Shown here: positions 8,437 through 49,441 of the stretch, piece by piece | Layout of the letters: each line of letters starts with the position of its first letter | Position numbering within the stretch: position 1 is the first letter of the stretch | Assembly (NCBI RefSeq): GCF_024653915.1 | Contig: NZ_JANLGY010000006.1 | Location: forward strand, 62,001 to 126,000 | Length of the DNA stretch: 64,000 nt | Direction: 5' to 3' | Source: Sulfuricaulis sp. | GTDB taxonomy: Bacteria > Pseudomonadota > Gammaproteobacteria > Acidiferrobacterales > Sulfurifustaceae | Notes under the pieces: generated by a model | What the model was told of the DNA's origin: nothing | The model's database searches: none | What the model saw: only the letters and a program-made list of their open reading frames with translations | Program-made: the position numbers and the translations under genes

Positions 8437-8452
8437 ATAAAGGCTGTGAATT

Positions 8453-8543
8453 GACAGGATTAACAGGATTTACAGGATTAAAAGCGAAGCAAACAAGGCC
8501 AAAGATTTTACAAAGAAATCCTGTTAATCCTGTAAATCCTGTC
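8453..8543. repeat. Inverted-arm tandem-unit element A (rph/rdgB spacer)
   Basis: Left arm 8453-8479 is three copies of a 9-nt unit, ACAGGATTW; right arm 8517-8543 is the inverted counterpart (AATCCTGTW). The 27-bp arms pair almost completely around a 37-nt loop. The element begins 13 nt after the rph stop and ends 16 nt before the rdgB start, so it makes up nearly the whole spacer. Confidence 0.85.
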
Positions 8544-16189: not shown

Positions 16190-18337
16190 ATGGACATTGC
16201 CTCGCTGCCGGTAACGGCCCTAAAAGGGGTCGGTCCGAAACTCGCGGACAAACTCAAGCGCCTCGGCCTGTATACCGTGCAGGATGTCCTGTTTCATCTT
16301 CCCCTGCGCTATCAGGATCGCACACGTCTCTTGCCCATCGGCAGCCTGCGGCCCGGCATGGAGGCGGTGGTGGAGGGCGAGATCGAACTGGCGGACGTGG
16401 TGTTTCGTGGGCGGCGCAGTCTGATCTGCCGCGTCAGTGACGGCACCGGCCACTTGCACCTGCGGTTCTTTTATTTCAGCGCCATCCAACAGCAGAACCT
16501 CGCGCGCGGCCGGCGCCTGCGACTGTTCGGCGAGGCGCGCTTCGGCCCGGCCGGGCTCGAGATGATTCATCCTGAATATGAATTCACCGATGGCGCGCAG
16601 CCGGCGAAGGTCGAGGAAAACCTGACGCCGGTGTACCCGGCGACCACGGGCGTACATCAGCTGAGCCTGCGCAAAATCGCACGCCAGGCACTGGAAAAGC
16701 ATCTCGATAAAATTCACGAGTGGCTGCCATCTGTTGTGTTGCAGGAACTGAAACTGCCGACGCTCACGGAGGCGCTGGCGCTGGTGCATCAACCGCCGCC
16801 GCACACACCGGTGGAACTGCTGGCGGAGGGCAGGCATCCCGCGGTGCTGCGCCTGTCCTTCGAGGAGTTGCTGGCGCATCACCTGAGCCTGAAGCGTTTG
16901 CGCGCACGAGTGCAGACGGAAGCCGCACCACCCATTGCAGGCGATGGCGGGCTGATGCGTCAATTGCTGGCACGTCTGCCGTTTCAACTCACGCGCGCCC
17001 AGCAACGCGTGCTCGAGGAAATCCTGCAAGACCTGCGGCAGCAGCATCCGATGCAGCGCCTGGTGCAGGGCGATGTCGGTTCGGGCAAGACCATCGTCGC
17101 GGCCTGCGCGAGTCTGGGCGCCCTCGAAAGCGGCTTGCAGGTTGCGGTGATGGCGCCGACAGAATTGCTGGCCGATCAGCATCTGAAAAATTTTTCCGGT
17201 TGGCTCGAACCGCTCGGTATCTCGGTGGTCGGCCTGTCCGGCAAGCTCAATGGCCGCGCGCGCCAGGACGTGCTCGAAAAAATCGGCTCGGGCCGTGCCG
17301 CCATTGCGGTCGGCACGCAGGCGCTGTTTCAGGAGGGGGTGGAATTCGCCGATCTGGGTCTGATCGTGGTCGATGAGCAGCACCGTTTCGGCGTGCATCA
17401 GCGCCTCGCGCTGCGCGAAAAGGGCCGCGTGGGCTTACGCCGGCCGCATCAATTGATCATGACCGCCACCCCCATTCCGCGCACGCTCGCGCAAAGCCTG
17501 TATGCCGATCTCGACGTGTCGGTGATCGACGAACTGCCGCCGGGTCGCAAGCCTATCGAAACCGTGGCGCTTCCCTCAGCGCGCCGCGCGGACGTGGTCA
17601 GCCGTGTCCGCGATGCCTGCTCCGCCAGCCGGCAGGTCTATTGGGTTTGCCCGCTGATCGAGGAAACGGACAATTTCGCCGGGAGCGAAATTGGGCGCAC
17701 TTCAGTGCGCCCCGCAGGGGCGCGCGCCAGGGATGGCGCGCGTCAAACGCTGGAACTGGAAACCGCGACGGACACGGCGCAGGCTTTGCGCGAGGCCTTG
17801 CCGGATCTGTCGATTGCACTGATACATGGGCGCATGAAACCGCTGGAAAAAGAAAAGATCATGGCGGCATTTAAACGTGGCGAGGTGCAACTGCTGGTGG
17901 CCACCACCGTCATCGAAGTCGGCGTGGACGTGCCGAACGCCACGCTTATGGTCATCGAAAACGCCGAGCGTCTGGGCCTGTCGCAATTGCACCAACTGCG
18001 CGGCCGCATCGGACGCGGCTCGGTGGAAAGTCACTGCGTGCTGCTGTATCAACCGCCCTTGTCGGAAATGGCGCGCGCCAGGCTGGCGGCCATGCGCGAG
18101 ACCAGCGATGGCTTTGAAATCGCGCGCCGCGATCTCGAAATGCGCGGTCCCGGCGAGCTGCTCGGAACGCGCCAGGCTGGCATGCCGCAATTTCACATCG
18201 CCGATCTGTTGCGCGACCGCGCATTGTTGGAACGCGTACAAAGTGTCGCCGAGCAGGTGTTAAAGGAATACCCCGAATGCGTGGAGCCGATCGTGCGGCG
18301 CTGGCTCAGTGGCGCCGAGACCTATGGTAATGTCTGA
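16190..18337 (+). CDS. recG: ATP-dependent DNA helicase RecG
   Basis: A 715-residue fork-reversal helicase. The N-terminal wedge domain includes LKGVGPKLADKLKRLGL; the helicase motifs include Walker A GDVGSGKT, DEQH (VVDEQHRFGVHQR), MTATPIPRT and the C-terminal GRIGRG and DLEMRGPGELLGTRQ. It is about 22 residues longer than E. coli RecG because of a 26-residue in-frame insertion at 17672-17749 encoded by three adjacent palindromes. The ATG at 16190 was chosen over 16169 because family members begin near LPVTALKGVGP. Confidence 0.93.
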   Translation: MDIASLPVTALKGVGPKLADKLKRLGLYTVQDVLFHLPLRYQDRTRLLPIGSLRPGMEAVVEGEIELADVVFRGRRSLICRVSDGTGHLHLRFFYFSAIQQQNLARGRRLRLFGEARFGPAGLEMIHPEYEFTDGAQPAKVEENLTPVYPATTGVHQLSLRKIARQALEKHLDKIHEWLPSVVLQELKLPTLTEALALVHQPPPHTPVELLAEGRHPAVLRLSFEELLAHHLSLKRLRARVQTEAAPPIAGDGGLMRQLLARLPFQLTRAQQRVLEEILQDLRQQHPMQRLVQGDVGSGKTIVAACASLGALESGLQVAVMAPTELLADQHLKNFSGWLEPLGISVVGLSGKLNGRARQDVLEKIGSGRAAIAVGTQALFQEGVEFADLGLIVVDEQHRFGVHQRLALREKGRVGLRRPHQLIMTATPIPRTLAQSLYADLDVSVIDELPPGRKPIETVALPSARRADVVSRVRDACSASRQVYWVCPLIEETDNFAGSEIGRTSVRPAGARARDGARQTLELETATDTAQALREALPDLSIALIHGRMKPLEKEKIMAAFKRGEVQLLVATTVIEVGVDVPNATLMVIENAERLGLSQLHQLRGRIGRGSVESHCVLLYQPPLSEMARARLAAMRETSDGFEIARRDLEMRGPGELLGTRQAGMPQFHIADLLRDRALLERVQSVAEQVLKEYPECVEPIVRRWLSGAETYGNV
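17672..17749 (+). repeat. In-frame palindromic insertion within recG
   Basis: The segment contains three consecutive hairpins: AATTTCG/CGAAATT (17672-17692), GGGCGCAC/GTGCGCCC (17693-17712) and GCGCGCC/GGCGCGC (17722-17741), plus a GCCCC/GGGGC alternative stem between them. It encodes 26 residues, from Asn-Phe-Ala to Arg-Gln-Thr, that have no counterpart in E. coli RecG between the conserved YWVCPLIEE and the region before IHGRMKP. The reading frame is kept. Confidence 0.75.
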
Positions 18338-45306: not shown

Positions 45307-45360
45307 AACCACAGAGGACACAAAGATGAAAAATTTTAAAACTTTGTGTCCTCTGTGGTT
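45307..45360. repeat. Inverted-arm tandem-unit element E (before gcvT)
   Basis: A perfect 19-bp inverted repeat (45307-45325 and 45342-45360) with a 16-nt AT-rich loop. The arm is an ACCACAGAGG unit followed by ACACAAAG. It lies between the riboswitch terminator and the gcvT start, ending 19 nt before the ATG. There is no U-tract, so it is not an ordinary terminator. Confidence 0.85.
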
Positions 45361-46886: not shown

Positions 46887-46990
46887 TTCACCGCAAAGAC
46901 GCAAAGAGCGCAAAGAAAGTCAAAAGTACCAGGTTCAATATTTTTAATGTTTTATGTTTTTCTTTGCGTCCTTAGCGCCTTTGCGGTGAA
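46887..46990. repeat. Inverted-arm tandem-unit element F (gcvH/gcvPA spacer)
   Basis: Left arm 46887-46916 has three GCAAAG-type units of 8-9 nt; right arm 46961-46990 is its inverted counterpart with a few mismatches around a 44-nt AT-rich loop. It starts right after the gcvH stop and ends 22 nt before gcvPA. The unit is shared with the solo arm at 9371-9399. Confidence 0.85.
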
Positions 46991-48430: not shown

Positions 48431-48931
48431 ATGGCCCAGGTATTATTCAAAGGACAACCCGCCCACACCAGCGGTGAACTGCCGAAGGTCGGAAGCAAGG
48501 CGCCGGATTTCAAACTCACGGCGGGGGATCTCTCGGATGTCACTCTCGCCAATTACAAAGGAAAGAAAAAACTGCTCAACATCGTGCATTCGCTCGACAC
48601 TGGACCCTGCGCGGCCAGCGCCAAGCGGTTCAATGAATTCGTCAAGAACCGCAATGACCTGGTCGTGCTGGTCATCTCTGCCGATCTGCCCTTCGCCCAG
48701 GGCCGGTTCTGCACCGGCGAGGGGCTCAAGAACGTGGTGACGCTGTCCATGATGCGCGACCGGCATTTCGCCAAGGACTACGGCGTGCTGCTGACAGACA
48801 CCCCGATTGCCGGACTTTGCGCGCGCGCCACCTTGGTGCTGGATGAGAACGACAAGGTGCTGTACACGCAAATGGGGCCCGAGCTGACCGTCGAGCCGGA
48901 CTACGACAAGGCTTTCGCCGTGCTGAAGTAA
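48431..48931 (+). CDS. tpx: Thiol peroxidase (Tpx), copy 1
   Basis: A 166-residue atypical 2-Cys peroxiredoxin. Peroxidatic Cys in SLDTGPCAASAKRF and resolving Cys in ADLPFAQGRFC are both present. It reduces hydrogen peroxide and organic peroxides using thioredoxin. It has an N-terminal FKGQPAHTSGELPKVGS typical of Tpx. It is followed 9 nt later by a second copy, both inside the gcv operon. Confidence 0.93.
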   Translation: MAQVLFKGQPAHTSGELPKVGSKAPDFKLTAGDLSDVTLANYKGKKKLLNIVHSLDTGPCAASAKRFNEFVKNRNDLVVLVISADLPFAQGRFCTGEGLKNVVTLSMMRDRHFAKDYGVLLTDTPIAGLCARATLVLDENDKVLYTQMGPELTVEPDYDKAFAVLK

Positions 48932-48940
48932 TGGTGATTT

Positions 48941-49441
48941 ATGGCCGATATCACCCATCGCGGAAATCCGGTTCATACCAGCGGTAACCTGCCGGCGGTC
49001 GGCAGCCGCGCGCCCGACTTCCGCCTCACGGATGCCGACCTGAAGGACGTATCGCTCGCCGATTTCAAGGGTAAGAAGAAGCTCCTGAATATTTTCCCCA
49101 GCATCGATACGCCGACCTGCGCCTTGTCGACGCGCAAATTCAACGAGTATGCCGCCCAACACGCCAACGCCGTGATCATCATGGTGTCGGCCGATCTGCC
49201 GTTCGCTCAGAAGCGTTTCTGTACTGCGGAGAACACGAACAACGTCAAGACACTGTCAATGATGCGCGACCGGAATTTCGCCAGGGACTACGGCATGCTG
49301 CTGCTGGACGGTCTGTACCAGGGCGTCACGGCCCGGGCAATTGTTGTAATCGACGAAAACGACAAGGTGATATACACCGAGCTGGTGCCGGAGATCAGGC
49401 AGGAACCGAATTACGACGCCGCTCTGGCCACGCTCAAATAA
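48941..49441 (+). CDS. tpx: Thiol peroxidase (Tpx), copy 2
   Basis: A 166-residue Tpx paralogue, same length as copy 1 and clearly related but diverged. Peroxidatic Cys in SIDTPTCALSTRKF and resolving Cys in ADLPFAQKRFC are kept. The two copies differ around the active site (DTGPC versus DTPTC) and near the C-terminus, so they may prefer different peroxides. It precedes gcvPB by 26 nt. Confidence 0.93.
   Translation: MADITHRGNPVHTSGNLPAVGSRAPDFRLTDADLKDVSLADFKGKKKLLNIFPSIDTPTCALSTRKFNEYAAQHANAVIIMVSADLPFAQKRFCTAENTNNVKTLSMMRDRNFARDYGMLLLDGLYQGVTARAIVVIDENDKVIYTELVPEIRQEPNYDAALATLK

Follow-up and report, generated by a model that had tools for sequence, protein, structure and literature searches.

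The recG gene in the window (the whole 64-kb stretch of DNA that was analysed) carries a 75-bp in-frame insert, which is very probably a copy, itself probably recent, of a non-autonomous, non-coding mobile palindrome of three hairpins, dispersed in this gammaproteobacterial order. On the same reading, RecG gains a flexible loop of 25 residues and is probably active. We observed a dispersed element family, empty sites in relatives, an insertion rule, covarying hairpins and in-frame insertions in three genes.

A three-hairpin insert in recG

The encoded RecG is 715 aa long, compared with 690 aa in six relatives of the same genus. The original prediction placed 26 extra residues at positions 17672-17749. 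Extra residues are present, but the same-genus empty sites (genomes G001, G003, G005, G006, G007 and G008) give a net insert of 75 bp, or 25 residues, with different edges and a one-base edge ambiguity. The features are listed below, with a slash marking the point of insertion in an empty site.

16190-18337, plus strand: recG, 715 aa, with Pfam domains RecG_wedge, DEAD, Helicase_C and RecG_dom3_C; supported by alignment and the solved RecG structures 9wm0 and 1gm5
17667-17669, plus strand: left target flank CGG (empty site CGG/AAACG)
17670-17744, equally 17671-17745, plus strand: palindromic element within recG, 75 bp and 25 net residues, delimited by empty sites in relatives
17671-17693, plus strand: hairpin 1, 9-bp stem, CAATTTCGC-CGGGA-GCGAAATTG; loop CGGGA, with CNGGA kept across the family
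17693-17712, plus strand: hairpin 2, 9-bp stem, GGGCGCACT-TC-AGTGCGCCC; loop varies in the family
17719-17744, plus strand: hairpin 3, GGCGCGCGCCA-GGGA-TGGCGCGCGTC, 11 pairs including one G.T; strong covariation in the family
17745-17747, plus strand: right target flank AAA (empty site CGG/AAACG)

The insert had been described as three back-to-back perfect hairpins. The three perfect hairpins are present; hairpins 1 and 2 have one base in common and a 6-nt linker lies between hairpins 2 and 3. The surroundings of the hairpin 3 loop, CANGGATG, are kept in the family. Perfect stems of at least 9 bp with a loop of 2-6 nt occur at nine places in the window, three of which are neighbours in the recG insert. 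The folding z-score of the insert is -4.75, and none of 200 shuffles was equally stable.

In the numbering of the solved RecG chain 9wm0 the insert falls between 497 and 498, and the Pfam domains are complete on either side of it. These domains and the comparison with solved structures bear out the claim that the reading frame is kept and the helicase domains are intact. No frameshift or stop was found elsewhere in recG. An Rfam match to Ysr141 on the minus strand at L001 845-1099, about 17004-17258 of the window, stays below threshold (61 bits against a gathering score of 196); it overlaps conserved helicase coding sequence and probably reflects coding conservation.

A dispersed family with covarying hairpins

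When the 96 bases around the insert were compared with their own genome, 27 matches were obtained, nine of them with E < 1e-8, and a covariance model (R1) was built from these nine. The model, against which the recG insert scores 95.5 bits, identified 26 copies in the same genome, so the further copies anticipated by the original prediction do exist, and 1 to 58 copies in each other genome of the genus. The family is thus present in nine of nine genomes of the genus, and strong copies were found in 19 of 57 genomes of the order, spread over five families.

Across 76 aligned copies 93.3% of the structure cells are paired, and both-sided changes number 308, compared with 75.6 in shuffles. The shuffle control ignores relatedness; the slid-partner control does not, and when partners were slid by one to three columns the covariation signal was gone. 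Part of the covariation could stem from hairpin-templated repair during replication. The loops of hairpins 1 and 3 keep NGGA (GG in 75 and 72 of the 76 copies, respectively), whereas the loop of hairpin 2 is variable. With two odd pairs set aside, there are 23 G.T and 22 A.C mismatches. This balance is consistent with neutrally decaying DNA palindromes and argues against constraint on single copies at the RNA level.

This last result bears on the idea that the element is a CsrA/RsmA-binding RNA unit, in which two ANGGA-like loops would turn every transcribed copy into a site for CsrA, thereby explaining its spread. The idea draws on the retention of NGGA in two loops while the third varies, on the presence of csrA, on a weak RsmW match (22.1 bits, E = 0.81) and on the GGA-type loops (CAGGGATG, CAGGATG) of an unrelated repeat in the MAG SW_26. 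Yet by the mismatch counts no RNA-level constraint is seen in single copies, and GGA loops could equally be recognised as DNA. Assignment to the CsrA/RsmA-binding sRNAs of the RsmW clan was rejected because the score is far under the Rfam gathering threshold of 52 bits, although GGA does occur in two of the three hairpin loops, as in that clan. In our search of the literature, nothing on point was found about repeats linked to CsrA or with GGA loops, or about palindromes inserted in frame in gammaproteobacterial genes. We consider a CsrA-binding unit very unlikely and favor a mobile DNA palindrome.

Two larger arrangements were seen among the copies. Head-to-head inverted pairs of elements about 12 bp apart occur at L226 646-816 and L229 1501-1670, with a palindromic spacer in both, and similar pairs occur in genomes G011, G020, G034, G038 and G055; they may be larger composite elements. 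At L245 1501-1622 and L249 1501-1623 the first hairpin is enlarged by a GGA-rich hairpin of about 43 bp (CGGCACAGGGATGTGCCG).

Insertion rule and copies in other genes

The flanks of 73 copies follow a common pattern. The left flank is G or C followed by A (70 of 73 at each position) and the right flank is A, A, A (68, 66 and 53 copies). The target rule is (G or C)A/AA(A), with at most one base duplicated, and the inserted length is usually 72, 73 or 75 bp. Copies that landed in other repeats obey the same rule, for example with CCGCAAAGACGC to the left and AAAGAGCGC to the right of the insertion point.

Two relatives have copies in frame within priA and a cytochrome-d1 gene, and the matching empty sites elsewhere are precise. 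The empty site is CGG/AAACG in recG, CAG/AAG or CAG/AAA in priA, and CGG/AAACGG, on the element's strand, in the cytochrome-d1 gene (exact bases from the relative L274). Net inserts of 75 bp in recG and 72 bp in each of the other two genes imply that at most one base, an A, was duplicated. The inserted length is divisible by three in 41 of 74 copies, and 34 of these 41 lack stops in five or six frames, which means that an insertion in a gene would often be readable. No more than three of the 74 copies were found to lie clearly within genes; most hits in genes have therefore presumably been lost. Long open frames across the copies in L224, L230, L178, L009 and L242 seem antisense or spurious and were not counted, nor was the ruvC copy (L232), which lies upstream of the RuvC domain.

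We propose that the element enters after (G or C)A inside a short A run, duplicating at most one base. As over half of the copies have inserted lengths divisible by three and these are mostly open in five or six frames, a gene that is hit could gain a short peptide without a stop, and in-gene copies would persist only where the protein tolerates it. The tolerated spot in recG would be the loop that follows the motif-IV strand and leads into the next helix. Movement would proceed via a folded single-stranded DNA form, with an enzyme acting in trans.

A specific version of this mobilization is that the element is a REP/REPIN moved by a RAYT (Y1 HUH) transposase that recognizes its hairpins as single-stranded DNA. 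The hairpin anatomy and the little or no target duplication agree with this, and the genome has four Y1_Tnp matches. Against it, the element is without a GTAG tag and its two ends are unlike each other. Of the 19 genomes with the element 15 have Y1_Tnp genes, as do 27 of the 38 without it (p = 0.75); no such gene was found in G015, which has 38 copies and is 95% complete, or in G001. No element was found within about 1.5 kb on each side of the tested Y1 genes. We therefore regard RAYT mobilization as unlikely. A strong IS200-type Y1 transposase gene (G000:C6:129408-129764, E = 8.6e-36) lies about 3.4 kb beyond the window end, and no element was found in its locus.

RecG with the insert

The insert is missing from seven RecGs of the same genus and from about 75 other gammaproteobacterial RecGs that are readable at this position. 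Within the genus, the RecGs of G001, G003, G005, G006, G007 and G008 were read and that of G004 was judged from two contiguous matches. Aligning relatives, as had been suggested, thus showed the insert residues to be absent and the same-genus sites to be empty. Neither result named as refuting the original prediction, residues shared with distant RecGs or a lack of further copies in the genome, was obtained. The one exception among the RecGs read is L058 (MAG SW_26, G041), which carries an insert of 17 residues at the same codon. An AlphaFold2 model based on 33 aligned RecGs has a mean pLDDT of 81.6, with residues 491-517 below 50, between the strand at 483-488 and the helix at 511-537. In this model the insert lies in a disordered loop that joins the motif-IV strand to the helix following it in the second helicase domain.

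Upstream and downstream of the insert alike, recG has dN/dS values of 0.06-0.14 against insert-free relatives, which is within the span shown by pairs that lack the insert. As the copy is pristine, much or most of this purifying selection may pre-date the insertion, which is probably recent; by the same token, RecG function may have been lost despite the intact frame. From the intact frame and motifs, the ordinary dN/dS and the modelled loop position, we infer that RecG is probably still functional; the insertion would be near-neutral for it.

An alternative is that the insert is absent from mature RecG or lethal to it, being spliced out or bypassed by the ribosome, or that recG is decaying. 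Ribosome bypass of hairpin inserts is known in some mitochondria, and an insertion in the helicase core domain could do harm. However, each of the three intragenic copies is stop-free and has an inserted length that is a multiple of three, which bypass would not require; moreover, recG has ordinary dN/dS and no frameshift or stop outside the insert. This alternative is very improbable, and a translated, tolerated loop is the reading that we retain.

Comparison with known palindromic elements

Rickettsia palindromic elements (RPEs) measure 105-146 bp and have long stem-loops as well as terminal inverted repeats; a guanylate kinase bearing one is reported to be translated and active (PMC2229807). 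Like RPEs (PMC2229807), the recG element is dispersed, non-autonomous hairpin DNA found in frame in conserved protein genes; it is multi-copy, and its in-frame sites in recG, priA and the cytochrome-d1 gene are empty in relatives. Unlike them, it measures 72-75 bp, has three independent hairpins and a (G or C)A/AA target, and occurs in another bacterial class. It is not an RPE proper, as there is no 105-146 bp unit closed by terminal inverted repeats, and the likeness to Rickettsia elements that had been proposed holds as an analogy, not as membership, given the differences in size, architecture and host.

Some GTAG/CGTC REPs are also inserted in frame in genes, many of which serve replication and repair, and REPs occur at about the same recB site in two Xanthomonas species; the main text on intragenic REPs in that study names neither recG nor priA (PMC3733652). 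Such REPs and the recG element are alike in being short dispersed palindromes, partly in frame in genes (PMC3733652), and differ in that the latter is a three-hairpin unit with no GTAG tag and no unpaired CGTC. A GTAG REP/REPIN was rejected because the ends are ACAA... and ...TCAA, the aligned family has no GTAG and there is no co-occurrence with RAYT. A CGTC REP, with an unpaired tag, an 8-9 bp stem and a 4-5 nt loop, was rejected because the right-end CGTC (often CATC or GGTC) is in the hairpin 3 stem and the unit has three hairpins.

Bacterial MITEs such as ERIC, Correia/NEMIS and YPAL (PMC2229807) are likewise small, non-autonomous, structured and sometimes fused in frame to genes, whereas the recG element has neither terminal inverted repeats that pair its ends nor a target duplication reaching 2 bp. 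It is not a classical MITE, since the net inserts at its three empty sites are 75, 72 and 72 bp and no more than one A is duplicated. As it is neither an RPE proper, a GTAG REP, a CGTC REP nor a classical MITE, we place it among the palindromic elements that can become protein-coding, as RPE-like. The recG insert, RPEs and intragenic GTAG/CGTC REPs belong to one kind of phenomenon. In the literature we found no description of this family, of its insertion rule or of the repeated use of the RecG spot.

Protein-coding palindromes were first regarded as a Rickettsia peculiarity; to these can now be added a covarying three-hairpin gammaproteobacterial family whose insertion rule is defined and whose empty sites are clean in three genes. 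Genes decorated by palindromes serve as natural insertion experiments on conserved proteins, and they make the mobilizer question testable.

A different repeat at the same recG codon

The 17-residue insert in the SW_26 RecG belongs to a different palindromic repeat, for which 40 good matches were obtained in the same genome. This repeat (L058, L138-L152) is about 50 bp long (GCACAGGGATGTGC..GTCGCGGGAGGCAGGATGCCGGGAGCGACC). Both it and the recG element are palindromic, carry GGA in hairpin loops and lie in frame at the same recG codon. They differ in that their sequences are unrelated and the SW_26 repeat is mostly intragenic in our sample: 10 of 15 sampled copies are in frame within genes, in both orientations. 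The hosts assigned by Pfam are recG, recN, rsmB, trmD, purD, dnaQ, gltX and an OtnK-like kinase; the others are rmlD (L140), assigned from reading the sequence, and an open frame that has no Pfam match. The same recG codon is thus used by a second family, from another lineage, which also decorates a range of other conserved genes.

A far-reaching interpretation is that GGA-loop hairpin elements are an unrecognized class of protein-invading mobile DNA with its own mobilizing system, two unrelated families of which arrived independently at the same recG codon in distant Gammaproteobacteria and left copies in priA, recN and dnaQ, perhaps exploiting CsrA. We give it little credence. A second, similar insert is seen by alignment in the N-terminal wedge domain of the SW_26 RecG.

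The window holds other intergenic inverted repeats at 46887-46990, 45307-45360 and 8450-8542 (CACCGCAAAGACGCAAAG, CCACAGAGGACACAAAG and AGGATTTACAGGATTAA, respectively). Repeats of the 46887-46990 and 8450-8542 kinds are landing sites of the recG element in relatives. There is also a 117-bp direct repeat, 78% identical, with copies 510 bp apart at 48677-48793 and 49187-49303.
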